From contig CAISEG010000027.1 of the NCBI GenBank assembly GCA_903884265.1, positions 1 through 61,675 on the forward strand: DNA of 61,675 bases, given 5' to 3'. The first letter of the stretch is position 1, and each line of letters starts with the position of its first letter. The notes below the pieces were generated by a model, which worked only from the letters and a program-made list of their open reading frames with translations, searched no databases and was not told the DNA's origin. The position numbers and the translations under genes were made by a program. This document shows positions 5,687-23,166 of the stretch, one piece after another. This DNA comes from an uncultured Anaerolineales bacterium. Lineage in GTDB: Bacteria; Chloroflexota; Anaerolineae; Anaerolineales; Villigracilaceae.

Positions 5687-5698
5687 GGAATTTGAACC

Positions 5699-6493
5699 AT
5701 GTGGGAAACCATCATTGTCAACCCTTTTTCTACAGCATTGCTGCTGATCTATAAATTGATCGGCGGGAACTTTGGGATTGCGATTATCCTGTTCACCATC
5801 CTGATCCGCCTGATCACCCATCCCCTGATGGCATCGCAGATCAAATCCAGCACCAAGATGACGGAGTTCCAGCAGTCAAAGCAATGGCAAGATATTCAAA
5901 AAAAGTATAAGGGGGATAAGGAGAAGCTGGCTCAGGAGCAGATGAACCTGTACAAGGAACTTGGCATCAGCCCATTTGCCTCCTGTTTGCCATCGATCAT
6001 CCAGATTCCGCTCATCTTTGGCCTTTATCAGAGCATCATGCGAGCCCTGGCCTCCACTCCCGGCCAGTTGCTCATCTTCACCCGGGCGGTATCTCCTCTC
6101 TTGAATTTTTTCCATATCAACTCCGCCGATCTGGTACCTCTCAACAGTAAATTCCTTTGGATGAATCTGGGTCAGCCGGAGCGTGTCTACATGTTCGGGG
6201 TTGGCATTCCATTACTGGCCCTTATTGTTGCCGTCACCACCTATGTCCAGTCCAAGGTGACCATGCCAGCTTCTCCGAATCCGAATGATCAAGGCGCCAT
6301 GATGAATAAGATGATGGCGCTCTACATGCCACTCCTGCTGGGTTATTTTGCCCTCACCTTTGCATCCGGTCTGTCCGTCTACTTCATCACGGGTAACTTG
6401 ATCGGTATTGCGCAATACGCCTTACTGGGTAAAGTCAACTGGCGTGCTCTAATTCCAGGTTATAAACCTAATACAACGGCGAGGAACAAATGA
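5699..6493 (+). CDS. yidC: YidC/Oxa1 membrane protein insertase
   Basis: GNFGIAIILFTILIRLITHPLMASQIKSSTKMTEFQ; SCLPSIIQIPLIFGLYQSIMRAL; five-TM bacterial layout. Confidence 0.95.
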   Translation: MWETIIVNPFSTALLLIYKLIGGNFGIAIILFTILIRLITHPLMASQIKSSTKMTEFQQSKQWQDIQKKYKGDKEKLAQEQMNLYKELGISPFASCLPSIIQIPLIFGLYQSIMRALASTPGQLLIFTRAVSPLLNFFHINSADLVPLNSKFLWMNLGQPERVYMFGVGIPLLALIVAVTTYVQSKVTMPASPNPNDQGAMMNKMMALYMPLLLGYFALTFASGLSVYFITGNLIGIAQYALLGKVNWRALIPGYKPNTTARNK

Positions 6494-7257
6494 ACGAACG
6501 CACTACTCTTGAAAAAATCGCTCCAACAGTTGAAGAAGCCGTCACTGAAGGTTTGACCGAACTTGGCCTGACCGCTGAGGCTGTGGATGTGGAAGTTTTG
6601 GATAACGGCAGCCGCGGGCTTTTTGGAGTCGGCAGCCGCCAGGCACGCGTCCGTCTGACGGTTAAAATCGTCCCTTCCGGATCTGAAACTGGTTCCGAAA
6701 AACATGGTGCGGCCCAGACGAAAGCCACCTCTCCTGCAAAAGAAGCTGTGACAGCGGAAATCTCGGAGGAGGCTTTTAACGTACTGGACGACAATCTCTT
6801 GTTTATCTCGCGTCAGACCGTGGCTGAATTACTGGAAAAGATGAAAATTCCCGCGAAAATCGAAGTCCGCTTCGGCGACCTCGACGAGGAAGGCCAACGG
6901 CCTGTCTTGGTGGACATTCAGGGCGATGACCTGGGTGTGCTGATTGGCCGTCGGGCTGAGATCCTGAATGCCCTGCAATATGTGGTCAATTTGATCGTCA
7001 GCAAGCAGGTGGAACACTGGGTGCAGGTAAATATAGATGTCCAGGGTTACCGGGCGCGCCACGAACGCCAGTTGCGCCAGATGGCGCAGCGCATGGCTGA
7101 ACAGGCTATTAAGGCTGGCCGTCGACAGGTCCTTGAACCGATGTCGGCCAGTGACCGACGCATTATTCATCTTGAACTGCGCGACCACCCGGGTGTGACC
7201 ACTCAATCTGTGGGAGAAGATCCAACCCGTAAAGTGACGATCGTACCAAAAGAGTAA
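6490..7257 (+). CDS. jag: Jag/KhpB RNA-binding protein (KH and R3H domains)
   Basis: Follows yidC; NGSRGLFGVGSRQARV; VLIGRRAEILNALQYVVN; R3H-like ARHERQLRQMAQRMAEQAIKAGRRQVLEPMSASDRRIIH. Confidence 0.92.
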   Translation: MNERTTLEKIAPTVEEAVTEGLTELGLTAEAVDVEVLDNGSRGLFGVGSRQARVRLTVKIVPSGSETGSEKHGAAQTKATSPAKEAVTAEISEEAFNVLDDNLLFISRQTVAELLEKMKIPAKIEVRFGDLDEEGQRPVLVDIQGDDLGVLIGRRAEILNALQYVVNLIVSKQVEHWVQVNIDVQGYRARHERQLRQMAQRMAEQAIKAGRRQVLEPMSASDRRIIHLELRDHPGVTTQSVGEDPTRKVTIVPKE

Positions 7258-7290
7258 TTACAGATTTTAAAATTAGGAATCATGTAACCT

Positions 7291-7319
7291 TTGCCCCTTT
7301 CTCTGAACGAGAGGGGCAA
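7291..7319 (+). terminator. Rho-independent-like hairpin after jag
   Basis: TTGCCCCTTTCTCTGAACGAGAGGGGCAA, imperfect stem. Confidence 0.55.
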
Positions 7320-7508
7320 TTCATTTATGGTTTGACTTCTTCCGTGATAAATCTTTGAACATGCTGTTTTCGAATAGTTCGCATTTCATTGAATTTGGTT
7401 CTAATATTAAGGTAGAAGCATGAAGAACCAGCAGAGGGTATTCCATCGCATGATATAATCTTAAGCGTCGGTTTTGCACAAAAGCCTTCAGGAAACGGTC
7501 AAAAGGAA

Positions 7509-8339
7509 ATGCCAGAGGTTAACGGGAAGGATACTTTTGAGGATCGTTTGAATATCGTCCTTGATGAGCTTTCGCTAGGAATTCGGTGGGAACGCCCCAG
7601 TCTCATTGTGGCGGTCTATTATTCAGAACACATCAAGAACATGGTTCAAGCCCGCCTTAACAAGTCTCTGGGAAAATTAAAACAGACTGTTCTATATTAT
7701 TCTGTCGATAAATTACATTATGATATACCGCTGGAATTGTTAAATCACCCCAACCATAATAAAGCCGTTATTTTTGTGAGTGGTTTGCGCTGGGGAGGCG
7801 GGCGAGGATATTCCAATGCTTTTCGCGCCTTGAACATGCATCGGGAATACCTAGTTGAAGGGAATATCAAAGCCATATTCTGGCTGACTAAAAAGGAAGC
7901 AAAACAATTGGCTCGGTTTTCACCTGATTTCTGGGCCTTCCGTCATAAAGTCGTTGAATTTTTCGATCTGCCTTCAAAGAATAATGGACTTCATGAATCA
8001 TCCAAAAGTTCATTTCACCATTTGTACACAAAGAATGCAAATGATTTTAGGTCATGGATTAGAACCGGTGAGACGTTTTATGCTCTGGGTTGTATGGATG
8101 ATGCCATCCTGAATTTTCGAAAAGCTCTTCATAAGTATCCAGATGAGACTGCAATCTATTTGCAAATCGCGGAAATCTATTTTTCCATGGGCCAGCTTCC
8201 AGCTGGGGACCGTAATCTAATAAAGGCCAAAAAAGGTAAGACCGATAAGATTGATTATTTGAGGGAGTTGGATCGCGTGAAAGAGATTGCAGGCTCAATT
8301 CAACTTGCTGGCGGCGGATTCTTGGAGGAATCTTCTTGA
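7509..8339 (+). CDS. Uncharacterised protein: N-terminal STAND-partner-like domain plus short C-terminal TPR
   Basis: DRLNIVLDELSLGIRWERPSLIVAVYYSE...HREYLVEGNIKAIFWLTKKEAKQLARFSPDFWAFRHKVVEFFD, alignable by eye to the N-terminus of the 14787 ORF; TPR-like GETFYALGCMDDAILNFRKALHKYPDETAIY. Confidence 0.8.
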   Translation: MPEVNGKDTFEDRLNIVLDELSLGIRWERPSLIVAVYYSEHIKNMVQARLNKSLGKLKQTVLYYSVDKLHYDIPLELLNHPNHNKAVIFVSGLRWGGGRGYSNAFRALNMHREYLVEGNIKAIFWLTKKEAKQLARFSPDFWAFRHKVVEFFDLPSKNNGLHESSKSSFHHLYTKNANDFRSWIRTGETFYALGCMDDAILNFRKALHKYPDETAIYLQIAEIYFSMGQLPAGDRNLIKAKKGKTDKIDYLRELDRVKEIAGSIQLAGGGFLEESS

Positions 8340-8346
8340 TTTTAAA

Positions 8347-10482
8347 ATGATGCAAGTCGTTGTGGAAGCTGTAATCTCTCTTACTGCGGTCATAGTTGGC
8401 GGATTGCTTATTTCCTTTCGCCGTCAAAGGGGAATTGGCTATGCCAGCACCATTGCTTTTGCAATTTGCCTCGGCTTGGATGCAATTTCCTTGTTCGCCA
8501 TCTCCCAAGTTAATAATCAACAATTTACCTTCGCATTGAAGATCATAACAAACCTTGTAATTGGTTATTCACCTGCGTTTGTTTTTATCTATATTTTAGG
8601 TTACATCATCCAAAGTCAACGTTTATCTTATCGAATACTACTTGTTTTGGTATTTATCCCTGCTTTTTTACTGGTCTTGTTTACCGTGCAGTCGGTCCCG
8701 GGCTTCCTGTTTTCAGGATTGGAATCCCAGAATATCATAGTGATGTCCTCATTGGATTTATGGGGATGGTTGATGTTGGTTTATTCCATCGGTATCCTGG
8801 TTGCATCTATAATCCTGACCATTACTACCTCCAGCAATGTACTTAAGCCACTCAAGGCAGGGCCGCAAATCGCCCTGAACAGCGCAATTCTTGCCAGCAT
8901 TGTCCTGGATAGTGTAAGTTTCACCAAACTCGGGCCGCTGACCATTGATCATTATCTGATCCTGGTAGGTCTTATCTTGATTGGGGGAGCGCTTCTTTAT
9001 TCCAATCTTAGAATCCCCCAAACGAACTTGATCACTAGGGATGAATTGTTTGATAGCATTAACGATGGCATCATTATCTTAAATAATGAAGATGTAATCT
9101 TAGACTTGAATCATGCCGCGGAGCTATTGATCGGCATTCCAACCCATCTGGCGTATGGGAATTCTGTCGAACAAATATTGACAAATTGGAATAGTATCTC
9201 GGGGCCCAATAATGCCAAGGAAACAGAGTTCAGAGGAAGTATAAATTTAAACAATCAATGGCGCCATATCAGTGTCAGAATTAATAAATTGGATGGTGAT
9301 AGGGGAAAAGTTATATTCCTGAGGGACATAACCGATCGAAAAGATACAACTGAATTTCGCCAACGCGCCCGGGAAGAAATGTTCAACCTCCTCAGGTCAT
9401 TTTTCACGTCAGCAAATACTTCTCAAAGCTCCAATGATTTCTTTAGAGATGTGCTTTTCCAAATTGCATATACTTTCCATGCAGAAAGCGGAGCCATTTG
9501 TTTGGTTGATTCCCTTCCAAATTCCAAGAAGTATAAATTCTCCATTATGGCAAAACATGGTGAACTGATGGAGGATAAAACTGCTTTACCAAATCTGCAG
9601 GAAGCATTGGTTGCATCCAAGTGGATCCTGGGGAATAAAGAACCTCTACTTATTTCTGATGCATCTCAGAACCCGCAGTTTGCTAAAGTGTCCCAACAAT
9701 TAGGGGATAACGCGGTTACCGTTTTCCCTATGGTATATAACCAACAACTAATGGGTGTGCTGATTCTTGCGCGAACAGAAGCAACCGGGTTCATCGCAGA
9801 TGAGATTGTCCGTTTGGGCGTTGTCACTGAAGAGCTGGCATCCTTTATATATTCCGATCGTAAGAGAAAATCCGATATTGCTCTGGCTGAGCGTCACCGC
9901 CTTGCCCAGGACCTGCACGATTCAATCACCCAGAAGTTATACGGTCTGGTAACATTGACAGAAGCTGTCAAGTTGGGATTAGAATCAGGAGCACCATTAA
10001 ACGAAAACAACATGGTGGAAAGAATTAGTGAAAATGCCCGTCAAGCTCTCAGAGAAATGCGCTTATTTCTTTTCGAGCTTGAACCAGTGGATATAGATAG
10101 AGATGGTTTGGTATCAACGATCCAACAACGTTTAGCTTCGGTAGAAGGTCGCTCTGGGATCCAGGCCCGGATGGTAACAGAAGGAGAGATTTTATTATCA
10201 ACCGATAAGGAAACAGAAGTCTACTATATCGTGGAAGAAGCCCTAAACAACATTCTCAAACACGCTAATGCAAAATCAGTGCTAGTGAAAATGAAGCCTC
10301 GGAAGGAATCAATATTTCTTGAGATCGTTGATGATGGAGTTGGTTTTGAACCTGATAATGTCAAGATTGGCGGTAAAGGTTTAAGAAATATAAAAGAGCG
10401 AGCTAAACGAATTAAAGGCAAACTCAAAATAGTTTCTTCTCCTAAGCAAGGGACTAAAATCACCTTGGTGATTCCACAATAA
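8347..10482 (+). CDS. Membrane histidine kinase: 7TM-type N-terminus, PAS, GAF, HisKA_3/HATPase
   Basis: Hydrophobic N-terminal third; LAERHRLAQDLHDSITQKLYGLVTL; VYYIVEEALNNILKHANAKSV; DDGVGFEPDN; GGKGLRNIKERA. Confidence 0.9.
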   Translation: MMQVVVEAVISLTAVIVGGLLISFRRQRGIGYASTIAFAICLGLDAISLFAISQVNNQQFTFALKIITNLVIGYSPAFVFIYILGYIIQSQRLSYRILLVLVFIPAFLLVLFTVQSVPGFLFSGLESQNIIVMSSLDLWGWLMLVYSIGILVASIILTITTSSNVLKPLKAGPQIALNSAILASIVLDSVSFTKLGPLTIDHYLILVGLILIGGALLYSNLRIPQTNLITRDELFDSINDGIIILNNEDVILDLNHAAELLIGIPTHLAYGNSVEQILTNWNSISGPNNAKETEFRGSINLNNQWRHISVRINKLDGDRGKVIFLRDITDRKDTTEFRQRAREEMFNLLRSFFTSANTSQSSNDFFRDVLFQIAYTFHAESGAICLVDSLPNSKKYKFSIMAKHGELMEDKTALPNLQEALVASKWILGNKEPLLISDASQNPQFAKVSQQLGDNAVTVFPMVYNQQLMGVLILARTEATGFIADEIVRLGVVTEELASFIYSDRKRKSDIALAERHRLAQDLHDSITQKLYGLVTLTEAVKLGLESGAPLNENNMVERISENARQALREMRLFLFELEPVDIDRDGLVSTIQQRLASVEGRSGIQARMVTEGEILLSTDKETEVYYIVEEALNNILKHANAKSVLVKMKPRKESIFLEIVDDGVGFEPDNVKIGGKGLRNIKERAKRIKGKLKIVSSPKQGTKITLVIPQ

Positions 10483-10503
10483 TCGATACAAGGAAGGACA
10501 TCC

Positions 10504-11145
10504 ATGAAAAAAATCCGTGTTCTTATCGTCGAAGATCAGGCAGTTGTAAGAGAAGGCTTGGCAGCCATTTTTTCCTACCAGTCCGATATCGAAGTCGTCG
10601 GACAGGCAAAAGATGGGATTGAAGCTGTCGAAATGTTGAACGAAACCAAGCCAGATGTTATCCTGCTTGACCTTGTTATGCCGAGACAGGATGGCCTAAC
10701 AACAATTCCAATCCTAAAAGAGAAGCGACCGGAAGCGCATATCCTGGTGCTGACGAGTTTTGCTGATAATGATCGCGTTTACCAGGCGATCAAATCTGGC
10801 GCGCAAGGGTATATGTTGAAAGACGCCACGCACACTCAATTATTACAGGGGATCCGCGATGTTGCCCAGGGTCAGGCAACTTTGTATCCTTCGATTGCCA
10901 TGCGTGTAATTCGAGAGTTGAATGACCCTACGGATCTAACGTTGACGACCGAACCTCTAACCCCACGTGAACTCGAGACATTGCGCCTGATATCGAGTGG
11001 TCTGAGCAATCAGGAAATCGGCCAAAAACTATTTGTGCAAGAATCCACGGTCGCAAAATATGTCAGCAATATTCTTGATAAGCTCCATTTAGCCAACCGG
11101 ACCCAGGCTGCCCTGTATGCTGTCCGTAAAGGGATAACCGAGTAG
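10504..11145 (+). CDS. NarL/LuxR-family response regulator
   Basis: Receiver KIRVLIVEDQAVVREGL...PDVILLDLVMPRQDG; LuxR HTH LTPRELETLRLISSGLSNQEIGQKLFVQESTVAKYVSNILDKL. Confidence 0.94.
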   Translation: MKKIRVLIVEDQAVVREGLAAIFSYQSDIEVVGQAKDGIEAVEMLNETKPDVILLDLVMPRQDGLTTIPILKEKRPEAHILVLTSFADNDRVYQAIKSGAQGYMLKDATHTQLLQGIRDVAQGQATLYPSIAMRVIRELNDPTDLTLTTEPLTPRELETLRLISSGLSNQEIGQKLFVQESTVAKYVSNILDKLHLANRTQAALYAVRKGITE

Positions 11146-11170
11146 AAAGAACCTCTGGCAATTCTCATAT

Positions 11171-11200
11171 AAGAGCCCCGCATAACCATGCGGGGCTCTT
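11171..11200 (+). terminator. Rho-independent terminator
   Basis: AAGAGCCCCGCAT-AACC-ATGCGGGGCTCTT, perfect 13-bp stem, followed by ATGTTTTT. Confidence 0.85.
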
Positions 11201-11496
11201 ATGTTTTTAAGAATGGAACTCCCTCATAGTTTCCACAAGCGAACGATCCGTTTTCCCACGGGGGAGGAGTATCGCAAAAACATGATGATTCCATGTAACA
11301 ATTACTTCCCAATTCTTACTCTTATATAGTCCAGAGAAATAACGGGTTTCTGCGGTTCCAAATTTATAAGGAAAGCGAGAAAATAAGCTTGTTCCATTAG
11401 AAAACCTGCTCCTTAATAAAGACCGCCAACCAGCTACCATACCAACCTCGGCGGAATGAATTTTGACAAGAGAAACTTTTTGGGACAAAAAGGAAA

Positions 11497-11937
11497 ATGA
11501 TGCTCTTCGGAAATTACACCCTACGGCTAAGTGGAAAAAACCAACTCGCCCTGCCATCGAATTATCGAGAGGCGATCAGCAATACCGCCTATATCACTCA
11601 AGGGTTTGATCGGAACCTTTTCCTTTTGTCTAAACAGGCCTTTAATGCCATTTATTCACATGTAAAAGCGACCAGCATTTCTGACCCCTTGGCCCGCCTT
11701 CTGAGCAGATTATTCCTGGGAAGCGCCGTAGAGGTAGCAATTGAAGACTCTGGGCAGATCGAACTTCCATCAAGCTTATGTGAGTATGCCGGGTTGGGCG
11801 AGGAAATCATTATCGTCGGGCAAGGCGAGTATTTAGAAATTTGGTCCCCGACCCTTTGGCAAAAACAAATGGACAGCCTGAATGATTTTGAAACGAATAC
11901 CCATCGTTTTGAAAAATTCCATGTTTCTCTTACTTGA
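11497..11937 (+). CDS. MraZ-like (SpoVT/AbrB fold) protein, orphan
   Basis: FGNYTLRLSGKNQLALPSNYREAI...ITQGFDRNLFLLSKQAF; LLSRLFLGSAVEVAIEDSGQIELPSSLCEYAGLGEEIIIVGQGEYLEIWSPTLWQ. Confidence 0.85.
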   Translation: MMLFGNYTLRLSGKNQLALPSNYREAISNTAYITQGFDRNLFLLSKQAFNAIYSHVKATSISDPLARLLSRLFLGSAVEVAIEDSGQIELPSSLCEYAGLGEEIIIVGQGEYLEIWSPTLWQKQMDSLNDFETNTHRFEKFHVSLT

Positions 11938-11990
11938 TCTCCTTCATAGTAAACTGAAATTCACCAGTAAAGAAATCCTGGAGAGCTGAT

Positions 11991-13454
11991 ATGACAATTC
12001 TTGGCATTGATATTTCAAAATGGGATGGCAATTGGGATGCTGCCAAAGCAAAACAGGCAGGCGCAACATTTGCTTTCATAAAAGCATCCCAAGCCACTTT
12101 TACTGATCCGGAATTCCGAGCGAACTGGCAGAAGGCCAAAGACGCTGGATTACTACGGGGAGCATACCATTATCTGGATTACACCAAGCCCGGCATTGAC
12201 CAGGCGAATTACTTTGCTGATCTTTTGAAAGATGATCCAGGGGAACTTCCTCCGGTAATTGATTATGAACTACGACGGACGGATAATAATCCGTCGGCTG
12301 CGATTGGATTTCTGCGCGATTGCTTGGACCAATTAACCAAGCGATCGGAGTTATTTGCAGATGCCACGATCAAACGACCTATATTGTACACTGGGCCTGG
12401 TTTTTGGGTCGAATATGGCGACCAGACCAAACGAGATTATTGGATTCAATTTCCCCTTTGGAATGCCCATTGGATAACATCCAGCGCCCCCATTATTCCA
12501 CCTCCATGGACCACCTGGCAATTCTGGCAGTTTACATCAAAGGGCCCGGGTGAAGCGTTTGGTTCTGAGAGCTTGACGATGGATATGAACCGGTTTAACG
12601 GAACGCTGAATGAGCTGATGGAATTTGCCGGGACCAGGATTCCGGTCGTAAACGTTAATGAGTTGTATGGGTCGTTAGAAGAAAAAGTTACCAACCTAGA
12701 AGGAATGGTTGCCTCAATAAATCAGACCGGAAATGCTTCGGCATCCAGTATATCCAGCCGTGTTGACGACCTGGAAGGGCAAATTTCGAATCTTAGCGGT
12801 TCGATAACTACGCTATCCACTTCTTTCACTCAGCAACTTGCCGCAGTTGAGCAGAAAATTGGTGATCTTGCATCTTCCATCTCGAACCCACCTGCACCGG
12901 CTGATCCTCCTTCGGAATCACCTGCCCAAATCAGTACACTTCCAGACCCTTCTTTACAAGCTAGTACCCCTTCAGACGTGCCAGTACTGGACAGTACCCT
13001 TCCAGATACGCATGTTCCAACCAATTCGACTTCTGCAAGTGATATTTACGCAATTTGCATCACCAGTGCTCTAAATGTACGCAAAGGTCCTGGCGCATCA
13101 TATCCAATGGTGGCGGGATTGCGATACGGGCAACGTGTGAAGGTCATTCAACGCCAGGATGGTTGGGCACAATTCGAGAATCCTGCTGGATGGAGTAGTG
13201 AGGCGTATCTTTCAATTGAACAATCCACAAGTCCTGATCCGATAGAAAGCCTCCCAGCGATAAATTCTCCTGAAAGCTATGGGATTTGTAATACAAGCGG
13301 GCTGAATGTGCGTGGCGGGCCTGGTGTCACATATCCAATTGCTGGAGGCCTGACGTATGGTCAACGGATCAAAATTCTCAGCCATCAAAACGGGTGGGCG
13401 CGAGTCGAGACTCCGTCCGGTTGGTGCAATGAGAGCTATTTAAGCTTCGCATAA
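11991..13454 (+). CDS. GH25 lysozyme-like glycoside hydrolase, coiled coil, low-complexity linker, two SH3b domains
   Basis: ILGIDISKWDGNWDAAKAKQAGATFAFIKASQ...LPPVIDYE; SH3 repeats SALNVRKGPGASYPMVAGLRYGQRVKVIQ and SGLNVRGGPGVTYPIAGGLTYGQRIKIL. Confidence 0.92.
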   Translation: MTILGIDISKWDGNWDAAKAKQAGATFAFIKASQATFTDPEFRANWQKAKDAGLLRGAYHYLDYTKPGIDQANYFADLLKDDPGELPPVIDYELRRTDNNPSAAIGFLRDCLDQLTKRSELFADATIKRPILYTGPGFWVEYGDQTKRDYWIQFPLWNAHWITSSAPIIPPPWTTWQFWQFTSKGPGEAFGSESLTMDMNRFNGTLNELMEFAGTRIPVVNVNELYGSLEEKVTNLEGMVASINQTGNASASSISSRVDDLEGQISNLSGSITTLSTSFTQQLAAVEQKIGDLASSISNPPAPADPPSESPAQISTLPDPSLQASTPSDVPVLDSTLPDTHVPTNSTSASDIYAICITSALNVRKGPGASYPMVAGLRYGQRVKVIQRQDGWAQFENPAGWSSEAYLSIEQSTSPDPIESLPAINSPESYGICNTSGLNVRGGPGVTYPIAGGLTYGQRIKILSHQNGWARVETPSGWCNESYLSFA

Positions 13455-13534
13455 GATCTTCCATCTACAACTCTTTTTAGCGGCGTTTTGTCCACCTACT
13501 GCTTCATACTCTATAATAAAAGCCGAGAATTGCA

Positions 13535-14797
13535 ATGACCAACTACGAATATATAAAAGCAAAAGATTTCGATCGGGCTTGGTTAAATTTCGAACTAGAC
13601 CTTCCCCTGGCACCTGGGAAAAATGGCCAACCTAATCCATTTTATATCTCCCGGCCGGGTAATCCAATTCATGAACTGACTGATGCGATCCTGGCACCAT
13701 TCTTCCGGCCGCCGAAATTCTTTTTTTCCGGTCATCGCGGTTGTGGAAAGAGTACAGAACTCCTGCATATCCTGTCACATCCTGAGATTCAGAAGAAATT
13801 TTGGCCGATCAACTTTAGTATTCGGGATGAGACAGACATAGTTGACCTCGATTTCCACGATGTTCTACTGGCTATTGGTAGCCAAATGTACAGGAATTAC
13901 AGAAAAAATGGTGGCGAGATTCCAGAACAGTTATTGAAACAATTAAATAGTTGGAAAGGAAAGGTTGAACAGGAAGTTAAAACTGTCTTATCGGGTCAGT
14001 CTTCTTATGAGTACAGTGGATCTTTGGATGCTTTTTTCTTAAATGCCGGCATGAAAATGAAACTGGAGCCTAAAACACGCATTGAATTACGGCAGGTTTT
14101 TGAAAAAGATATAACCGGTTTGATAGACGTCATAAACATGATTGCCGCAGCAATTTATGCAAAAGAGAAGCGAATTCCGCTATTACTGATTGATGATATG
14201 GATAAACCCGATCTCAATAAAGCTACAGCCATATTTCATGATCGGCGTGAAATTATGATGCAGCCAAATTGTGCCATCGTTTACACAGTTTCGAGTGCTT
14301 TATTTTACAGCAAAGAATTTGATGCCATTCGAGACCAGGCGATTTTTTTGCCTAACATTAATTTGCATCCTTACAGAGAACCCGAAAGGCATATTATCGA
14401 AGGTTATGATGCCATGCGACGCTTCGCTTATGTGAGGATGGATCAATCCCTGATCGACGGACAAGCGTTAGAAGACGCAATTACATATAGCGGTGGGGTA
14501 TTCCGGGAAATGGCAAGAATTATGCGTTCCGCCATTGGTTGTGCCAGGCGGCGTAAAGCCACGAGGATAATTGTAGATGATATTGAATGGGCTGCAACTG
14601 AAATCCGTAACGAATACCGGCGCATTTTAGATAAAAACGATTTAGCCTACCTAAGAAAAATTTCTGAGCATAATCGTCTTGAATACAACGATCGCTTGAG
14701 GCCTCTCCTGCAATTACTTGCCATCCTTGAATATCGCGATAGCGAAAACTGGTGCGATATACATCCTGTTCTAAAGAGACTAATAAATGAGCAATGA
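13535..14797 (+). CDS. P-loop (AAA/STAND-like) ATPase
   Basis: Walker A FFSGHRGCGKSTELLHIL; Walker B-like RIPLLLIDDMDK; YTVSSALFYSKEFDAIRDQ. Confidence 0.85.
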   Translation: MTNYEYIKAKDFDRAWLNFELDLPLAPGKNGQPNPFYISRPGNPIHELTDAILAPFFRPPKFFFSGHRGCGKSTELLHILSHPEIQKKFWPINFSIRDETDIVDLDFHDVLLAIGSQMYRNYRKNGGEIPEQLLKQLNSWKGKVEQEVKTVLSGQSSYEYSGSLDAFFLNAGMKMKLEPKTRIELRQVFEKDITGLIDVINMIAAAIYAKEKRIPLLLIDDMDKPDLNKATAIFHDRREIMMQPNCAIVYTVSSALFYSKEFDAIRDQAIFLPNINLHPYREPERHIIEGYDAMRRFAYVRMDQSLIDGQALEDAITYSGGVFREMARIMRSAIGCARRRKATRIIVDDIEWAATEIRNEYRRILDKNDLAYLRKISEHNRLEYNDRLRPLLQLLAILEYRDSENWCDIHPVLKRLINEQ

Positions 14798-17426
14798 TTC
14801 TCTTCATTTGGAACAAGATTCAAGTCTCTCGTTCCAAGACCGAATAGATATTCTTTTTCACGAGATTGAATTGGCAGTGAAGTGGGATCGGCCATCCATC
14901 TTATTCGCTATTTACAAATCCGATTTCGTTCGCGACGAAGTAAATCAGCTTCTAAATGAAGAATTATTAAAAATAGGCCAGAAAACACATCCCATAAAAA
15001 CAAATGATATCGATCAATTTGATTTCCTTTCACAGATATCTCAAATACCAGATTTGTCGCAAACCGTTTTGCTTATTGATGGGTTTAATTGGGAGTGTGG
15101 GCCTGAAGGCGTGCGCATCTTTACAGAGTTTAATAAGAATCGGGAATACTTCATTGACAATAACATCCGCGCAATATTTTGGTTATATGAAAATGAGGTA
15201 TCAGATTTTGCAGCGAATGCAACCGAGTGCTGGATCCTTCGACATCGTGTGGTCGAATTTGTGGATGTTTCTCAACATGCCCAAGGTTTAGTTCAATCAA
15301 TAGAACCGCTTGGGCAAAGTGCGAACAATTTTCCTGCAGATGAATATTTGTCGAAAGGCCCTTCTGATGCGATATTGAATTTACCGGATAGCGAAAAAGA
15401 GAATGCATCCCACGCAAATGCGTTACTGCGCCTGGGAATCCTTTTTTGGAGGAAGGGGAATCATCAACGAGCTCTTAAGTACTTACAAGCTTCTACGAAA
15501 ATTTCCAATTTGCTCGCCAACCACTCTCTTCAGACCCAATGTCAAAACGCACTTGCCCTGGTTCAAACCGAGCAAGGAAATATCGATGATATTGTATCTG
15601 CCTACCAGCAAGCTATTTCCCTCTCACCAGAATCTGATTTCCTCTGGAACAATCTGGGACAAGTCCTTGCGAAAAACGAGAGGAATGAAGATGCAATCAA
15701 TGCCTTTAAGAAAGCTCTATTATGCTCCCCTCAAGACTTTCTGAGTTGGGAAGGTCTTGGTCATACTTATAATAAGCTTGGAGTCTATCAGAACGCCATC
15801 TCTGCATTTGAAAAAGCCCTTGAACTTGCCCCATCCTACGCATTTTCCTGGGCAGGGATTGGAAAAGCATACTTGGAATCTGGTCAGTTGGAAAATGCGA
15901 AGAGTGCCCTTTGCAAGGCTGTTGAATTGAACGCCCAAATCATTGATGCCTGGATAAATCTGGGCAAGTGTTTTATTCAACAAAAACGTGATCTCGAAGG
16001 TATTGCCGTATACCATCGGGCGATTGAATTCAATCCCCAGAATGCTGAAATATGGGATGAGTTGGGAAAGCTTCACCTGCAAAGGCAAAACTACACTGAA
16101 AGCATTTCAGCATTTCAAAAAGTGATTTCTCTAAACCCCCAAAGAGGCGAAGCATATATTGCAATGGCGCATGCTCTATTTCAAATAGGCGATTATGAAA
16201 CCTCTGCCTCGATCTATGAAAACAGTATTCCACTTTTTGACGATAACGAAATCCGCTCGGCGCTTTGGAATCGTTTGGGTGATACCTTCTTGCAAATGAA
16301 AGATTATGAAAATGCCATATCAGCCTACAAACAATCGGATCAACTTCTCAAGGAACTCAAGAAACCTGATGACAAAAACGCTGAATTGATCCATGATACG
16401 GATCCCACCAACGATCATGAAATGGAACAAGATATTCCCGGAAAAGAAAGAGGTGAAAACATGATAGAGGCCAACCAGATATTAGAATTTAAAACCGCGG
16501 CCGAGTGGAATGAGCACGGAAATACTCACCTAAGAGCAGGTGCATACAACGATGCCATCGTTGCCTATACTAAAGCAATTGAGTTAGCCCCCAATGCATG
16601 TTGGCCCTATATCCAGAACCTAGCTTATGTACATTACCAGAAAGGCAAGGCAAAGGGCAAACTTACTGCTGGGAAAATTGAGGACCCCGATATTTGGGAG
16701 GGAGAGGACGAGTCGGATTTGGTTTCCGTCTTTGGCTGTGAGGCCATTACAAATCCAGATCAGAGTAATGCCATTGAAGAACCGCGATCGGAAGAACTTC
16801 ACAAGAATTCGTCTATCGGCCAATTTCCAGTCAGTCAAGATATCGGAATGGTGAACCCGAGCATTCCTGATCCTGTTGGAAGCTGCCCGAATCGGAAAAA
16901 GGAAACCGTTTTAGAGCCGGAGGGAAAACTGTCCAAGTCAATCATAGGTGACGTCAATCCAAAAAAAGATGCTCCAGAAATGGCTGCGATCGGAATGAAG
17001 GTTTCATCCGCGAATTCTAAAACAACTATCCCCGTTGAAAATACCCCTCAAAACTCCATCGACTGGAACGAGTTGGGAAATTCGTACACCAGTTCCAAAA
17101 AATTCGACGAGGCAATGGCAGCTTATAAAAAGTCAATCGAGATGAATCCTAAATTTGGTCAGCCGTATAGCAATATGGGTTTTATTTGCTATCGCTTAAA
17201 AAAGTATGAATTTGCAGTTCTACTTTACAAGAAAAGCATAGATCTCCTGGACACCCAGGAAGACAAAGCCATTTCCTGGAACAGGCTGGGTGATACTTAT
17301 AGACGTTTAGGAGACTATGGGAATGCATTGGCTGCATATCAAAAATCAAGTGAAATGGCACCCGCAGTGAGTCCTGTAATGGCTCGTGCAAGGGCAACTT
17401 TGTTGGAGAATAGTGTTGCAGGTTAG
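14787..17426 (+). CDS. Large TPR protein with N-terminal STAND-partner-like domain
   Basis: N-terminus DRIDILFHEIELAVKWDRPSILFAIYKSD...NREYFIDNNIRAIFWLYENEVSDFAANATECWILRHRVVEFVD; then many TPRs (AISAFEKALELAPSYAFSWAGIGKAYLESGQ...); start overlaps the ATPase stop. Confidence 0.88.
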   Translation: MSNDSLHLEQDSSLSFQDRIDILFHEIELAVKWDRPSILFAIYKSDFVRDEVNQLLNEELLKIGQKTHPIKTNDIDQFDFLSQISQIPDLSQTVLLIDGFNWECGPEGVRIFTEFNKNREYFIDNNIRAIFWLYENEVSDFAANATECWILRHRVVEFVDVSQHAQGLVQSIEPLGQSANNFPADEYLSKGPSDAILNLPDSEKENASHANALLRLGILFWRKGNHQRALKYLQASTKISNLLANHSLQTQCQNALALVQTEQGNIDDIVSAYQQAISLSPESDFLWNNLGQVLAKNERNEDAINAFKKALLCSPQDFLSWEGLGHTYNKLGVYQNAISAFEKALELAPSYAFSWAGIGKAYLESGQLENAKSALCKAVELNAQIIDAWINLGKCFIQQKRDLEGIAVYHRAIEFNPQNAEIWDELGKLHLQRQNYTESISAFQKVISLNPQRGEAYIAMAHALFQIGDYETSASIYENSIPLFDDNEIRSALWNRLGDTFLQMKDYENAISAYKQSDQLLKELKKPDDKNAELIHDTDPTNDHEMEQDIPGKERGENMIEANQILEFKTAAEWNEHGNTHLRAGAYNDAIVAYTKAIELAPNACWPYIQNLAYVHYQKGKAKGKLTAGKIEDPDIWEGEDESDLVSVFGCEAITNPDQSNAIEEPRSEELHKNSSIGQFPVSQDIGMVNPSIPDPVGSCPNRKKETVLEPEGKLSKSIIGDVNPKKDAPEMAAIGMKVSSANSKTTIPVENTPQNSIDWNELGNSYTSSKKFDEAMAAYKKSIEMNPKFGQPYSNMGFICYRLKKYEFAVLLYKKSIDLLDTQEDKAISWNRLGDTYRRLGDYGNALAAYQKSSEMAPAVSPVMARARATLLENSVAG

Positions 17427-17439
17427 ATTTGAGGCCAAA

Positions 17440-18942
17440 ATGAGCGATACACTACTCTGGAATGAAATAGGTAACATATATCTGAAAATCGGATCCCCTG
17501 AGGATGCGATTGCTGCTTATGCAAAAGCAATTGAAATGGATCCTGATTCTGGATGGCCTTATTGCAATCTTGGCCATGCATATTTTCTGACAGGAGAATT
17601 TGGGCAAGCGCTTTTCCTGTTCCGAAAAAGCATTCAATTAATGGATACACCTGAGAACCAGTCAGTCGTCTGGAATAAAATCGGCGACGCGTATCGTGCA
17701 TTGAAAGATGTTGATAATGCGATCCTGGCATATAAGAAGGCCGATGATTTGGATATGGGAACATCGTCGTCGGATAAGAATGGAAAAAGTAAACCTGACA
17801 ACCTGACCAACCTCCGCGAAATGCTCAAGACGGAAAAGATTGGTCCAATTACAAACAGTTCTTCAACAGTGCCTTCAAAGAAGGTAGCCTTCAACGATCC
17901 ATCATCTGAAAAACAGACACTTGTTGATGGATTACAACCTGATAATATCGATAAAATTTATGGGGAAAACCCTCTACCATCGGATGAAACCGAAACGAAA
18001 TCCCCGGTTTCAACGAACCGAACCGAGATCGAAGATCAGGACATTCGACCACTGGTTGAAAACCCCCTAGGCGGATCTCGCTTTGTCAGGAACGCGGATA
18101 AGGCTCCTCTTCCCAATGAAAAATCTATCATTGTCATTCCTAATTTGAATGAAACGGTTGAAGACCTTCCTAACGAAAGACCATCCCTCACCGAACCTGA
18201 GCAAATTAGTAATTCTGATCCAGCCCTTAAGCAAAATGAAAACCTGGACGGAAAGGCAAAAGGCGGTCCCAATACCTACCCAGGGATAGATGATTTGGAA
18301 GAAACCCTTGCCAAGGTCAATATTTATGAAAATATTACCCGGGTAAATCCGACCAGTGACCGGGCCTGGGATACGTTAGGTAAATTATATAAGTCATTGG
18401 GCAGGTACAAAGATGCCATCTGTGCATACCAGAAGGCTATTGATATCGCTCCCGAGAGAGAAGTTTATTATTACTATTTGGGGTTACTCTACTCGGTTGA
18501 ACAACAACACGATGACGCAGTCCGAGCCTTCCTATTTGTTCTCAGTAAGAACCCGGATTATGTACTGGCGCATAGCGCCCTTGCAGGTGTTTATCATAGG
18601 ATGGGGCTTGAAAACAAAGCGAACCATCACATCGCAACTGCATTGCCCAAGATGAATAATGAAAGCGCATATAATCGCGCCTGTTTTTATGCGATTTGTG
18701 GGGACATAGAACTCGCCTTCGAGTTCCTTCGGCTTGCACTTATCAATAAAGACACAACAGTCGAGTGGATAAAATCTGATCCAGACTTGGATCCAATCCG
18801 AACTGATCGGCGCTTTCAGGGTTTGATCTCAGAGAAAGATCAAACTGTCCCAGAAAATACCAATGAAAATTACTTTTCATCTGAATTGGAAGGGACTCAA
18901 AACCGTCTTCTACCCATATTAAACCATTCCTTGGCGAGGTAA
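17440..18942 (+). CDS. TPR-repeat protein
   Basis: LWNEIGNIYLKIGSPEDAIAAYAKAIEMDPDSGWPYCNLGHAYF; C-terminal TPRs SDRAWDTLGKLYKSLGRYKDAICAYQKAIDIAP; ATG at 17440 in frame. Confidence 0.88.
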   Translation: MSDTLLWNEIGNIYLKIGSPEDAIAAYAKAIEMDPDSGWPYCNLGHAYFLTGEFGQALFLFRKSIQLMDTPENQSVVWNKIGDAYRALKDVDNAILAYKKADDLDMGTSSSDKNGKSKPDNLTNLREMLKTEKIGPITNSSSTVPSKKVAFNDPSSEKQTLVDGLQPDNIDKIYGENPLPSDETETKSPVSTNRTEIEDQDIRPLVENPLGGSRFVRNADKAPLPNEKSIIVIPNLNETVEDLPNERPSLTEPEQISNSDPALKQNENLDGKAKGGPNTYPGIDDLEETLAKVNIYENITRVNPTSDRAWDTLGKLYKSLGRYKDAICAYQKAIDIAPEREVYYYYLGLLYSVEQQHDDAVRAFLFVLSKNPDYVLAHSALAGVYHRMGLENKANHHIATALPKMNNESAYNRACFYAICGDIELAFEFLRLALINKDTTVEWIKSDPDLDPIRTDRRFQGLISEKDQTVPENTNENYFSSELEGTQNRLLPILNHSLAR

Positions 18943-18947
18943 ATTTT

Positions 18948-20300
18948 ATGTCCATTATAATTTTGCTCAACGTGTTGCTCGGACTTTTCCTTACTTGGTC
19001 TTTACTAAGCCTCGCATCCATGCAAATACAGGAATGGATAGCCGCAAGGTTAAAATGGCGTTCTCAAATGCTTGAGAAAACGATTGGGAAAATGCTCACA
19101 GATTTTACCCTCGTGGATCAATTTTATAACCATCCGTTGGTCCGCAGCCTATATACTGGAAAGGATAATGGAGACAAACCTTCCTATATACCTACGAGCC
19201 AGTTCTCCAAGGCAATGATTGATATCCTCTCAGCGACTGGAACCGAAGCATCCCTTCTCCAGCAACAACTTTACAAGCTATATAGTGAAACCCAGAGGCT
19301 GCCAAGGAAGAACCGTTTTGAAGCGCGTCGGAGGATTAGTTTGATGTTGGGAATGATCCGCAAGGCATTAGTCTCTGAAACGGGGGAAGATGCTTGTGCT
19401 GAAATTCTGGATACTGTAAAAAACGACCTGTTAACAATGGGGCAGGATCTTCCCCGGTTTCAAGGCTCGGTGGATTCTTTGTTTGACACACTTCGAGTTC
19501 AGAAACAGCAGATCAACGACGCGTTGATTAAATTATCCTTCAAGGCGAACACATCTACAGATGAGACGACCAACAGAATCCGGGCTGGCGTCACTGCGCT
19601 CAGTATCACGCATCCCCAATTAAAACAGACGTTGTATGCTCTGATGAATAGTATGCCGCAATCACTGCTACAAAAAGAAAGTGAACTGGATTTGGTTCGC
19701 AGTAATATTGAGGAATGGTTCAATAACGCCATGAATCGTTTGACCGGTTGGTACAAACGCCGCTGCCTCATTACAACCCTGCTTTTGGGTATTCTCCTGG
19801 CAACAATTGTGAACGTTGACGCAATAAACCTTGTCAGTCGTTTGTGGAGAGAACCCGATTTGCGTATCGCTATCCTGAGTAATATTGAAAATATTCTTAC
19901 CCAAAATAACACAACCATATTAGATGTTGGACAATTATCCTCCATACAACAACAATTTTCAGATATCAATCTTCCCGTGGGTTGGTTAGGATCTCCTATA
20001 AAGCCTTCAATTAGTCTGGACACAAAAATCTCTGAAGTCTGTACGCTTTTTCCCCAACAAGAAAGTGAAATCTATGGCGTTTTAATTTCAGGTGAATGTT
20101 ATCCAATCATCAACTCTCCCCATGTAACTGACGTGACTGGTTGGCTTATAAAACTTTTTGGGATCTTGATGTCTGGGGTTGCGGCCAGCCCAGGTGCATC
20201 CTTCTGGTTTGATATGTTAAAGAAGATCATAAACGTGCGCCTTTCCGGGGTCAATCCATCTGAGTTAAAAACCGGAGCTATTACAGCCAAAGTGGGATAG
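18948..20300 (+). CDS. Uncharacterised membrane protein of the island operon
   Basis: N-terminal TM (IIILLNVLLGLFLTWSLLSLASM), central helical region, TM CLITTLLLGILLATIVNV, C-terminal TM and GASFWFDMLKKIINVRLSGVNP. Confidence 0.85.
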   Translation: MSIIILLNVLLGLFLTWSLLSLASMQIQEWIAARLKWRSQMLEKTIGKMLTDFTLVDQFYNHPLVRSLYTGKDNGDKPSYIPTSQFSKAMIDILSATGTEASLLQQQLYKLYSETQRLPRKNRFEARRRISLMLGMIRKALVSETGEDACAEILDTVKNDLLTMGQDLPRFQGSVDSLFDTLRVQKQQINDALIKLSFKANTSTDETTNRIRAGVTALSITHPQLKQTLYALMNSMPQSLLQKESELDLVRSNIEEWFNNAMNRLTGWYKRRCLITTLLLGILLATIVNVDAINLVSRLWREPDLRIAILSNIENILTQNNTTILDVGQLSSIQQQFSDINLPVGWLGSPIKPSISLDTKISEVCTLFPQQESEIYGVLISGECYPIINSPHVTDVTGWLIKLFGILMSGVAASPGASFWFDMLKKIINVRLSGVNPSELKTGAITAKVG

Positions 20301-20345
20301 AAGAGGTTATCCCGGAGAATATATGAAGAACAATTAGAATTAATT

Positions 20346-20390
20346 AATGTGCTCTATTGTCCGATCTTTACTAGGACAAAAGAGCACATT
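20346..20390 (+). terminator. Terminator-like hairpin closing the island operon
   Basis: AATGTGCTCT ... AGAGCACATT followed by TTT, with inner ATTGTCC/GGACAAA pairing. Confidence 0.75.
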
Positions 20391-20662: not shown

Positions 20663-21511
20663 ATGTCTTTTTTGGTTCCGCTCGACCCTGTGGATTATCT
20701 GATCATTGGTCATCTCTCTTGCGACATTACCCCCGATGGTCCACGTTTGGGTGGTACCGCCGCTTATGCTGCATTGATGAGCCGTGCCTTGGGTTTGCGC
20801 GTGGGTGTGGTTACGGCTTGGGGTGGTGAAGTACCCTTGGATATGCTGAGCGGGATCCAGGTCCAGAGTGTTCAGGTCCAACACAGTACAACCTTTGAGA
20901 ACAAATACACGCCTGAGGGTCGCATTCAACATATCTATCATATTGCCCCGGACCTGACCTTTGAAAATATTCCCGAAACCTGGCGGCATGCGCCGATCGT
21001 CCATGTAGGTCCAATTGCCGGGGAAGCCAAATCGCTGATTAAAGGAAATTTTCGGTCTTCCTTGTTAGGACTGACTCCTCAAGGTTGGTTACGGAAGTGG
21101 GATGATGCCGGTCAGGTGGGACCCGGTGACTGGCCTGAAGCCCACGAGATACTCGGTATGGTAGGTGCAGCGGTGATCAGCGTCGAAGATGTTGACGGAG
21201 ACGAGGATTGCATCGAAGCGATGGCTGCCGCCTGCCGAGTTCTGGCTGTGACAGAAGGCGCGGTGGGAGCGCGTCTTTACTGGAACGGTGATTTGCGCCG
21301 ATTCCATGCACCTTCCCTTGAGGAAGTAGATGCAACCGGAGCTGGTGATATATTTGCAGCAGCTTTCTTTTGGCGGCTCTATATGACACGCGATCCATGG
21401 GCAGCTGCGAGGTTCGCCACTCATCTGGCATCACTCTCAGTAAGGCGGTATGGTCTGGATGGAATCCCAACGCAGGCAGAGATCCAGAATTGCCTTGTGG
21501 AGGTTTTATAG
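20663..21511 (+). CDS. PfkB-family carbohydrate kinase
   Basis: DYLIIGHLSCDITPDGPRLGGTAAYAALMSRALGLRVGVVT; C-terminal EEVDATGAGDIFAAAFFW. Confidence 0.88.
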   Translation: MSFLVPLDPVDYLIIGHLSCDITPDGPRLGGTAAYAALMSRALGLRVGVVTAWGGEVPLDMLSGIQVQSVQVQHSTTFENKYTPEGRIQHIYHIAPDLTFENIPETWRHAPIVHVGPIAGEAKSLIKGNFRSSLLGLTPQGWLRKWDDAGQVGPGDWPEAHEILGMVGAAVISVEDVDGDEDCIEAMAAACRVLAVTEGAVGARLYWNGDLRRFHAPSLEEVDATGAGDIFAAAFFWRLYMTRDPWAAARFATHLASLSVRRYGLDGIPTQAEIQNCLVEVL

Positions 21512-22302
21512 TGGGACGCGTTTACACGCTAGTTAATCAAAAAGGCGGGGTTGGGAAAACTACCACAGCCATCAATCTTGGTGCTTATCTTGTGCAATTA
21601 GGACAACGCGTTTTGATTGTTGATATTGACCCGCAGGCCAATGCTACTTCCTCGCTTGGTGTGGATAAACATACTGTTAAAGGGGGCACTTATGAGGCAT
21701 TGATGGGTGGGGCACCTGCACCAGCGCTGGTGTTGCAGAACCCTCGCCTGAAACTGGCTATTTTGCCATCTTCGCCGTCTCTGGCGGGGGCGGAGGTTGA
21801 ACTGGTCAACGAGCTTGGTCGGGAAATAAAACTGCGCCAGGTCATTGCTCCGCTAGTGGATCGTTATGATTACATATTGATCGATTGTCCGCCCTCGCTC
21901 GGTATGTTGACTATCAATGGATTGGTGGCCGCCCAGGATGGCGTTCTCATCCCTGTGCAATGCGAGTATCTGGCACTGGAAGGGTTGAGCGAACTAACCC
22001 ATACCCTTCAGCGTGTCCGTTCGGCACTATTCCCAACCCTCAAAGTTCGGGGTGTGATCCTGACTATGTTCGACAGCCGTACTAACCTTTCCAATGATGT
22101 GGTGGCTGAAGTAAAAAAGTACTTTAACGAACGGGTCTTTGAAACGATCATTCCGCGCAGCATCCGCCTTGCAGAAGCGCCTTCTTACGGATTACCAATC
22201 TCGGCGTATGCCCCGGAATCAAATGCTGCCAAGTCTTATGAATCCCTGGCGCGCGAGTTGCTTACGGGCGATGGCGTTGCTGTTATGGAAAGCACTGAGT
22301 AG
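21511..22302 (+). CDS. parA: ParA/Soj chromosome partitioning ATPase
   Basis: YTLVNQKGGVGKTTTAINLGAYL; DIDPQANATSSLGV; IDCPPSLGMLT; GTG start overlaps the previous stop (TAGTG). Confidence 0.94.
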   Translation: MGRVYTLVNQKGGVGKTTTAINLGAYLVQLGQRVLIVDIDPQANATSSLGVDKHTVKGGTYEALMGGAPAPALVLQNPRLKLAILPSSPSLAGAEVELVNELGREIKLRQVIAPLVDRYDYILIDCPPSLGMLTINGLVAAQDGVLIPVQCEYLALEGLSELTHTLQRVRSALFPTLKVRGVILTMFDSRTNLSNDVVAEVKKYFNERVFETIIPRSIRLAEAPSYGLPISAYAPESNAAKSYESLARELLTGDGVAVMESTE

Positions 22303-22311
22303 GAGGAGACT

Positions 22312-23166
22312 ATGCCACAAAAATCAGGACTTGGTCGTGGATTGGGAGCCTTGATCCCTGGCGGGGATAATATTCAAATGGAAAATGGCGTGATGCTGGT
22401 TCCGGTTAAGATGGTTTTACCGAACCCCCGCCAGCCACGCAACATGATGCACCCCGAAGAGCTCGAAGAATTAACTGTTTCGGTGCGTGAACACGGCGTG
22501 CTCCAGCCGCTGATCGTTACCGTGGGTGAGTCGGCGGGGCAGTATATCCTGATTGCCGGGGAACGCCGCCTCCAGGCGGCCCGGTTGGCAGGTTTGGCCT
22601 CTGTACCGGTGCTTGTTCGCCAGGCAACGGACCAACAGCGGCTGGAATTGGCGATCATCGAAAATGTCCAACGCTCGGATCTGTCTGCACTTGAGGAGGC
22701 AGAGGCTTACCGCCAATTGGCTGAGGATTTTGATCTTTCCCACGAAGGCATCGCCGCTCGGGTTGGCAAGAGTCGTGTGGCGGTTACAAATACCCTGCGC
22801 CTTCTCCGGTTGCCTGACTCGGTCAAGAATGCCCTGATCGAAAAGCGCATTTCCGAGGGACATGCGCGGGCACTTCTAGCCCTTTCTACGCCGGAGGCTC
22901 AGACCGCAGCACTGCGCTCTGTCCTTGGGCAGGAACTCAATGTACGCCAGACCGAAGAATTGGTGCGGAAATTATCTGGAGAAAAACCAGTTCGCAAGCT
23001 AAAACCGGCTGTTTCTCCAGATATTGCTGAATTGGAAGATCGTTTGCGCTCGAGCCTGGGGACAAAAGTTACGTTACGCTCAGGGCGGAAGGGCGGGACG
23101 TTAACCATCCATTATTATTCCAACGAGGAGTTGAACGCCCTTACGGGGCGACTATTGGATGAATGA
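22312..23166 (+). CDS. parB: ParB/Spo0J partition protein
   Basis: KSGLGRGLGALIP; PNPRQPR; YILIAGERRLQAARLAGLASVPVLVR; SEGHARALLAL. Confidence 0.95.
   Translation: MPQKSGLGRGLGALIPGGDNIQMENGVMLVPVKMVLPNPRQPRNMMHPEELEELTVSVREHGVLQPLIVTVGESAGQYILIAGERRLQAARLAGLASVPVLVRQATDQQRLELAIIENVQRSDLSALEEAEAYRQLAEDFDLSHEGIAARVGKSRVAVTNTLRLLRLPDSVKNALIEKRISEGHARALLALSTPEAQTAALRSVLGQELNVRQTEELVRKLSGEKPVRKLKPAVSPDIAELEDRLRSSLGTKVTLRSGRKGGTLTIHYYSNEELNALTGRLLDE

Follow-up and report, generated by a model that had tools for sequence, protein, structure and literature searches.

An ATPase and a P-loop-less, TPR-bearing partner in a two-operon locus of Anaerolineae: a candidate accessory stress or conflict switch

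The locus and its genes

The window considered here is a whole stretch of 61,675 nucleotides (positions 1-61,675, forward strand, contig CAISEG010000027.1) from the assembly GCA_903884265.1 of an uncultured Anaerolineales bacterium of the Villigracilaceae. It carries a ~13-kb locus organised as two operons (7509-20390), the features of which are collected in Table 1. The original prediction had singled out four tightly packed genes of operon B as a candidate conflict or signalling operon, consisting of a P-loop ATPase, a STAND-partner TPR protein, a further TPR protein and a membrane protein. The physical description of this run is accurate: the four open reading frames are co-directional on the + strand at the predicted positions, the first two genes overlap by 11 nt and the remaining gaps are 13 and 5 nt. 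Both the Walker A (GHRGCGKST) and the Walker B (LLLIDDMDK) motifs are found in P0001, and the TPRs of the run are genuine by Pfam. The closing hairpin also folds as anticipated and is followed by a T run; it escaped a simple terminator scan, its loop being longer than 8. For P0003, the ATG start at 17440 has a possible longer alternative at GTG 17386, and homologues of this protein occupy the downstream position in most related loci.

Table 1. Features of the two-operon locus in the window (z, folding energy against dinucleotide shuffles).
Feature	Coordinates	Strand	Size	Description	Basis
P0006	7509..8339	+		Second P2N domain, followed by a short TPR tail; opens operon A	AlphaFold model, Foldseek, domain common to P0002
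P0007	8287..10482	+		7TM-PAS-GAF-HisKA_3-HATPase histidine kinase	Pfam
P0008	10504..11145	+		NarL/LuxR-type response regulator	Response_reg + GerE; conserved neighbour
Hairpin A	11170..11210	+		Strong terminator ending operon A, then T run	-30.6 kcal/mol, z -8.1
MraZ paralogue	11497..11937	+	146 aa	MraZ paralogue	PF02381
P0005	11991..13454	+		GH25 lysozyme, two SH3_3 domains; clade-specific accessory	Pfam
P0001	13535..14797	+	420 aa	Predicted active AAA+/STAND-like ATPase, C-terminal winged-helix-like region	Walker A/B, GGVFRE, AlphaFold, Foldseek
P0002	14787..17426	+	879 aa	Putative inactive AAA+/STAND-like N-terminal domain (~residues 15-165), ~10 TPRs	
P0003	17440..18942	+	500 aa	TPR protein, C-terminal TPR_END_plus (NF047558)	
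P0004	18948..20300	+	450 aa	Membrane protein, C-terminal GASFWFDMLKKIINVR motif; clade-specific accessory	
Hairpin B	20346..20390	+		Terminator, end of operon B	-23.1 kcal/mol, z -7.7

The borders first drawn around these genes were, on the contrary, too narrow. The conserved unit starts ~6 kb further upstream, at the beginning of P0006, and includes a histidine kinase, a response regulator, an MraZ paralogue and a second protein with the inactive domain described below (P2N), all of which had been left out. Neighbour clustering across related loci gives for operon A the order [Y1 transposase - Mrr-type -] P2N/TPR - 7TM-PAS-GAF histidine kinase - NarL regulator, and for operon B the order MraZ paralogue - [second NarL regulator or GH25] - ATPase - P2N/TPR - TPR - TPR [- membrane protein], where brackets mark the variable genes. 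Twenty loci extend 6.5 kb or more upstream of the ATPase; all of them have MraZ, and 19 have the P2N/kinase block, which is co-directional in 18 and divergent in one. A division into two operons is supported by the short internal gaps (medians of -8, -4, 36 and 18 nt), the 263-nt median gap from regulator to MraZ and, in the window, the strong hairpin between the two. No description of an arrangement of histidine kinase, response regulator, MraZ, ATPase and P2N was found in the open literature; one elsewhere is possible.

The kinase P0007 has an intact H-box (DLHDSITQK), and its true start probably lies downstream of TTG 8287, for example at ATG 8347. MraZ is a regulator of the division and cell-wall cluster. 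The paralogue at this locus matches PF02381 in two stretches (76.1 bits against a cut-off of 23), and in the window its first repeat has SGKNQ instead of the canonical DxxxR DNA-binding motif, while the motif is kept in the paralogues of five other loci (L038, L044, L047, L055, L057). Another MraZ is encoded on a different contig of the same genome (C73). The surroundings are of the origin type, with yidC-jag on one side (5699-7257) and parA/parB-like genes on the other (21370-23166).

The ATPase and its inactive partner

Studies of P0001 and its relatives by alignment and modelling bear out its earlier assignment as an AAA+/STAND-like NTPase. The Walker A motif, which begins at residue 66 (GHRGCGKS), is kept in 75 of the 79 relatives, with K72 and D223 conserved at 97% and 99%, respectively. 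Further landmarks are the Walker B motif with D223/K224, a GG(V)FRE motif at residues 320-325 and a conserved W406/D408/H410/P411 set near the C-terminus. R266 is 75% conserved and precedes the presumed strand 5. The AlphaFold model (pLDDT 84.1, pTM 0.82) has an AAA+ core fold, a helical lid and a C-terminal winged helix, the last judged solely from secondary structure, as residues 347-419 form helices and a beta hairpin compatible with such a domain. Foldseek matches include RUVBL, Cdc6/Orc1 (2qby, E 2.6e-7; 1w5t, 1fnn), RdrA of RADAR (8hra) and TnsC. Since the TM-scores are just ~0.3-0.5, the AAA+ likeness of the model is a fold-level statement.

Comparison with curated collections placed P0001 in no established family. 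No STAND or AAA model scored above its cut-off, the best from Pfam being AAA_16 (18.7 bits against 32.6); the Sll1717-family model NF047389 gave 19.2 bits over residues 56-229 against a cut-off of 75 bits, and KAP (PF07693) did not match at E<=1. Neither P0001 nor P0004 matched a PADLOC model, and PADLOC matches of P0002 and P0003 were confined to their TPR parts. Searches of PDB sequences with P0001, its profile A1 and P0004 returned nothing meaningful, and relatives of P0001 were absent from the phage collection searched.

The neighbouring protein P0002 had been described as having a globular N-terminus. Such a domain is indeed present; what had been missed is that, according to its fold matches, it looks like an inactive AAA+-like domain. 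This N-terminal domain of P0002, named P2N here, recurs in P0006. A pattern scan detected no Walker A motif in P0002, P0003 or P0004, and the motif is missing from 99 of 100 P2N members. The P0006 model (pLDDT 86.6) is a five-stranded alpha/beta domain, whose Foldseek matches, apart from those to TPR proteins, are mostly AAA+ cores (Skd3, RFC, MuB, TnsC, ORC), with AAA+ cores likewise found in a viral structure library. These matches are weak, with a best AAA+ E-value of 1.2e-3, and suggest an AAA+-like fold that has no P-loop. No Pfam model recognised the domain here. A paralogous relationship between P2N and the ATPase was considered and dropped, as the profile-profile comparison was not significant (hhalign probability 0.1%) and gave no sequence relationship between the two.

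AAA+ proteins carry an arginine finger between a helix and the last strand of the core. The sole invariant column of the P2N alignment A2 is an arginine, R145 of P0006 (79% conserved in the wider set), which in the model occupies the corresponding place, before the presumed strand 5. Its counterpart in P0002 is R152.

Distribution of the pair

The ATPase and P2N recur together far beyond chance. A P2N gene lies downstream in 70 of the 81 ATPase homologues with readable downstream DNA, 61 of them overlapping. When P2N was searched independently in 199 Chloroflexota genomes, 49 of the 55 matches lay directly downstream of an ATPase match; among the remaining six, two represent the second copy belonging to the window-type locus, while another (genome G008) follows an ATPase fragment. 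Counted per genome, 41 have both, nine the ATPase only, one P2N only, and 148 have neither (Fisher p 1.6e-32 with no correction for relatedness). These neighbourhood counts support the proposed partnership of the TPR neighbour with the ATPase, as an obligate one, and the two very probably constitute an obligate pair of one active and one inactive member.

The expectation of co-conservation thus held for the first two genes, which recur as a pair in dozens of genomes, but not for the four genes as a unit, because the membrane protein is downstream in just nine of ~35 related loci. The ATPase lies outside any characterised housekeeping family and is patchily distributed, which leaves the original prediction standing for that pair. 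Relatives of the ATPase were found in 66 of the 298 genomes of the class, so that ~78% of the class is without it, and 11 of the 14 genomes of the window's family have none. A contig scan yielded 49 loci, ten of which, with ~40% identity, belong to records outside the Chloroflexota, Methanosarcinales and ANME among them. Nine records (L064-L067, L069, L071, L073, L074, L076), from Methanosarcinales, ANME-2, Methanophagales and Syntrophoarchaeum, have the ATPase-P2N/TPR pair alone, without kinase or MraZ; in L065 the archaeal pair adjoins pyruvate:ferredoxin oxidoreductase genes. Three contigs filed as Gallionella, Gammaproteobacteria and Bacteroidia MAGs (L043, L053, L058) are placed by the tree among Chloroflexota and were probably misbinned.

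Accessory genes

The GH25 lysozyme P0005 starts with MTILGIDISKW, has no evident signal peptide and retains its active-site motif DxE (IDYE). GH25 is confined to eight loci of a single clade; each of the seven loci that show both positions has the membrane protein as well. In the tree, the loci with GH25 and the membrane protein fall in one clade (97/89), and all nine loci with the membrane protein downstream fall in the window's clade where tree placement is available. The two genes were probably acquired once, and their linkage therefore counts as a single event. P0004 has three hydrophobic segments (~1-28, 270-300, 396-419), and elsewhere its family is a stand-alone protein found in ~12% of genomes. 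Members of this family (L153-L163) are widespread in Chloroflexota and share a C-terminal QGAPFWFDLLxKL motif, and Pfam has no adequate model for them. A phage-type holin-endolysin cassette of P0005 and P0004 was considered and downgraded, given the single appearance in one clade and the commonness of the membrane protein alone; P0004, with 450 residues and three hydrophobic segments, resembled no holin family, and Pfam gave only a weak match to DUF4404.

In the sister arrangement, a second response regulator fills the GH25 slot, and operon A is preceded by the gene of an Mrr-type protein. This protein matches the PADLOC candidate PDC-S02; given an irregular catalytic motif (D or N, then QxxxK), it is not claimed to be an active nuclease. 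Directly before the Mrr-type gene, in a constant position, is a Y1 (IS200-like) transposase (L042:1883-2416; also L041, L045, L049, L057, L068), which is more like a domesticated RAYT than a random insertion.

Distant relatives with other modules

In distant relatives, P2N is joined to a range of other modules. Five loci (L094, L111, L112, L201, L202) carry P2N fused to NACHT-TPR-cNMP_binding-guanylate cyclase, and the cyclase of L094 matches Pycsar cyclase models. At L094:10281-13820, L111:10638-14630 and L202:2312-6364, one protein each combines the inactive AAA+-like domain with NACHT, TPRs, cyclic-nucleotide-binding domain(s) and a nucleotidyl cyclase. In L196 and L197, P2N is fused to NACHT-HEAT, and other distant P2N proteins have TPRs alone. 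Plasmids of Nostoc and Acaryochloris encode an ATPase relative with 23-26% identity, and the next gene codes for a giant protein with a weak P2N, a TPR-like region, nSTAND1 and WD40. An apparent fusion of 1,478 aa in L117 was set aside, as it looks like a spurious open-frame read-through before an ordinary ATPase start.

On plasmid p057_J of Nostoc sp. C057 (L132:4285-7209), the ATPase domain (257 bits) is itself fused to the C-terminus of a SAV_2336-related vWA-like protein, which adjoins a MoxR gene; there is no P2N downstream of this fusion. The start of the neighbouring MoxR (WLIFQG...PPKWREF) fits the WxhapG/MoxR motifs given for VMAP systems (PMC7159879). Judged by these sequence features, the kind of ATPase domain found in the window here takes the putative place of the effector in a conflict system of known type.

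Function of the locus and competing explanations

The best account of the locus as a whole, to which a probability of roughly one half may be given, is an NTP-dependent accessory signalling switch for stress or conflict, built around the ATPase-P2N pair. Its purpose would most likely be an accessory response to stress or biological conflict (immune or cell-death), and the role in conflict or apoptosis proposed originally is plausible by association. Conflict systems are marked, according to published work (PMC7159879), by exchange of modules around a core that stays constant, and the variable C-terminal modules seen here point in this direction, as do the patchy distribution in the class and in the window's family, the Pycsar-like cyclase, the VMAP-type fusion in Nostoc and the Mrr neighbour of the PDC-S02 kind. 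Counting against it are the lack of PADLOC matches other than those to TPR parts, the weak fold matches of P2N and the absence of a sequence relationship between its profile and that of the ATPase, the incomplete conservation of R145 (79%) and R266 (75%), and the probable single gain of GH25 and the membrane protein. The stable gene order within Anaerolineae also counts against it, as defence islands shuffle rapidly.

That stability is also what might be expected of envelope or division homeostasis, in which the kinase, regulator and MraZ would sense wall stress and tune wall remodelling by GH25, with the ATPase and TPR proteins acting in a chaperone-like manner. The nucleases vary among loci whereas the histidine kinase, NarL regulator and MraZ do not, GH25 acts on peptidoglycan, and the window locus sits between yidC-jag and parA-parB. 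However, the locus is missing from most of the class and of the window's family, GH25 is confined to one clade, and the distant pairs, some on plasmids, do without kinase or MraZ and carry NACHT, WD40 and cyclase modules typical of conflict signalling, which makes this explanation rather unlikely. It appears improbable that P0001 is a MalT- or ORC-like regulatory ATPase whose winged-helix region binds DNA and which, together with P0002, would form a ligand-dependent regulator of transcription or replication. DNA-bound Cdc6/Orc1 and TnsC are indeed among the top structural matches, the C-terminal region is compatible with a winged helix, and MraZ and LuxR-type regulators adjoin; yet a winged helix is also standard in STAND proteins with no action on DNA, the origin-side location does not extend to relatives in general (as the pair beside the pyruvate oxidoreductase genes illustrates), and the partners carry cyclase or WD40 modules. 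More improbable still is a toxin-like system of just the four genes originally singled out, with the membrane protein as output: tight packing and a common terminator speak for it, but the membrane protein is missing downstream in ~3/4 of related loci, is an independent stand-alone family elsewhere, and arose together with GH25 in one clade.

For the accessory switch, a working mechanism can be outlined. P0001 would form a mixed AAA+ assembly with the inactive domains of P0002 (and P0006), and the inactive partner would supply its conserved arginine (R152 or R145) at the AAA+ arginine-finger position. The TPR array may hold or sense a ligand or client protein, ATP binding and hydrolysis by P0001 would set the threshold, and the output would proceed via the TPR proteins. 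Operon A (P2N, kinase and regulator) probably responds to a signal from the envelope or from within the cell, and its products, together with MraZ, probably govern how operon B is expressed. Regulated wall damage or lysis, through the unexported GH25 with the membrane protein, may be part of the output in the window's clade. A more specific version, which we regard as speculative and on balance unlikely, is a cell-fate switch gated by the two-component system, in which two dead TPR partners share one ATPase, P0006 on the sensor side and P0002 on the output side. Kinase signalling and TPR ligand binding would then compete for the mixed ring, lysis would be triggered in the window's clade through the unexported GH25 and the membrane protein, and the core pair would serve other outputs in ANME/Methanosarcinales archaea and on cyanobacterial plasmids.

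If the accessory-switch reading is right, a widespread split design, with an active ATPase and a dead repeat-bearing partner, would join the prokaryotic STAND-like switches, and the P-loop-less P2N family would gain a defined partner. With a two-component system and an MraZ paralogue tied to the switch, trigger and output would become testable within about ten genes. Moreover, one module would link Chloroflexota, cyanobacterial plasmids and methane-oxidising archaea.

Comparison with known systems

Several known systems share parts of this design. With Cdc6/ORC, RdrA and AVAST proteins, P0001 has in common the AAA+ core, a GG-R motif after the core and a C-terminal winged-helix-like region, whereas here the ATPase is small and separate and the repeat scaffold is on a second, inactive protein. 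The likeness to the Sll1717 family (NF047389) is a weak match, far under the cut-off; that to KAP (PF07693) consists of the DDxDK/R Walker B and a score of 34.4 bits for the distant cyanobacterial member L132. The ternary iSTAND MoxR-vWA systems (Kaur et al., 2020, eLife, PMC7159879) likewise pair an AAA+ ATPase with an adjacent inactive STAND-like component, and they too have repeats and variable effectors. However, the ATPase here is not MoxR, and membership is excluded for the locus because MoxR and vWA genes are missing (Pfam, all main genes within 4622-20300).

The nearest in design, compared by description, appears to be the nSTAND2 two-gene system, both proteins of which are reported to keep the arginine finger (Kaur et al., 2021, eLife, PMC8195603). 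The candidate residues here are R266 of P0001 (75% conserved) and R145 of P0006 (79%), each in front of the presumed strand 5. Its inactive member is fused to an effector, commonly GT4 or HEPN (PMC8195603). Here the modules are instead TPR, NACHT, HEAT, WD40 and cyclase, with no GT4 or HEPN found, and the Anaerolineae loci additionally include a two-component system and MraZ. In both, STAND-type genes are adjacent, one intact and one eroded, and the eroded one bears variable C-terminal modules; the adjacency is plain at this locus, and the STAND-type nature of P2N is suggested by its weak fold matches.
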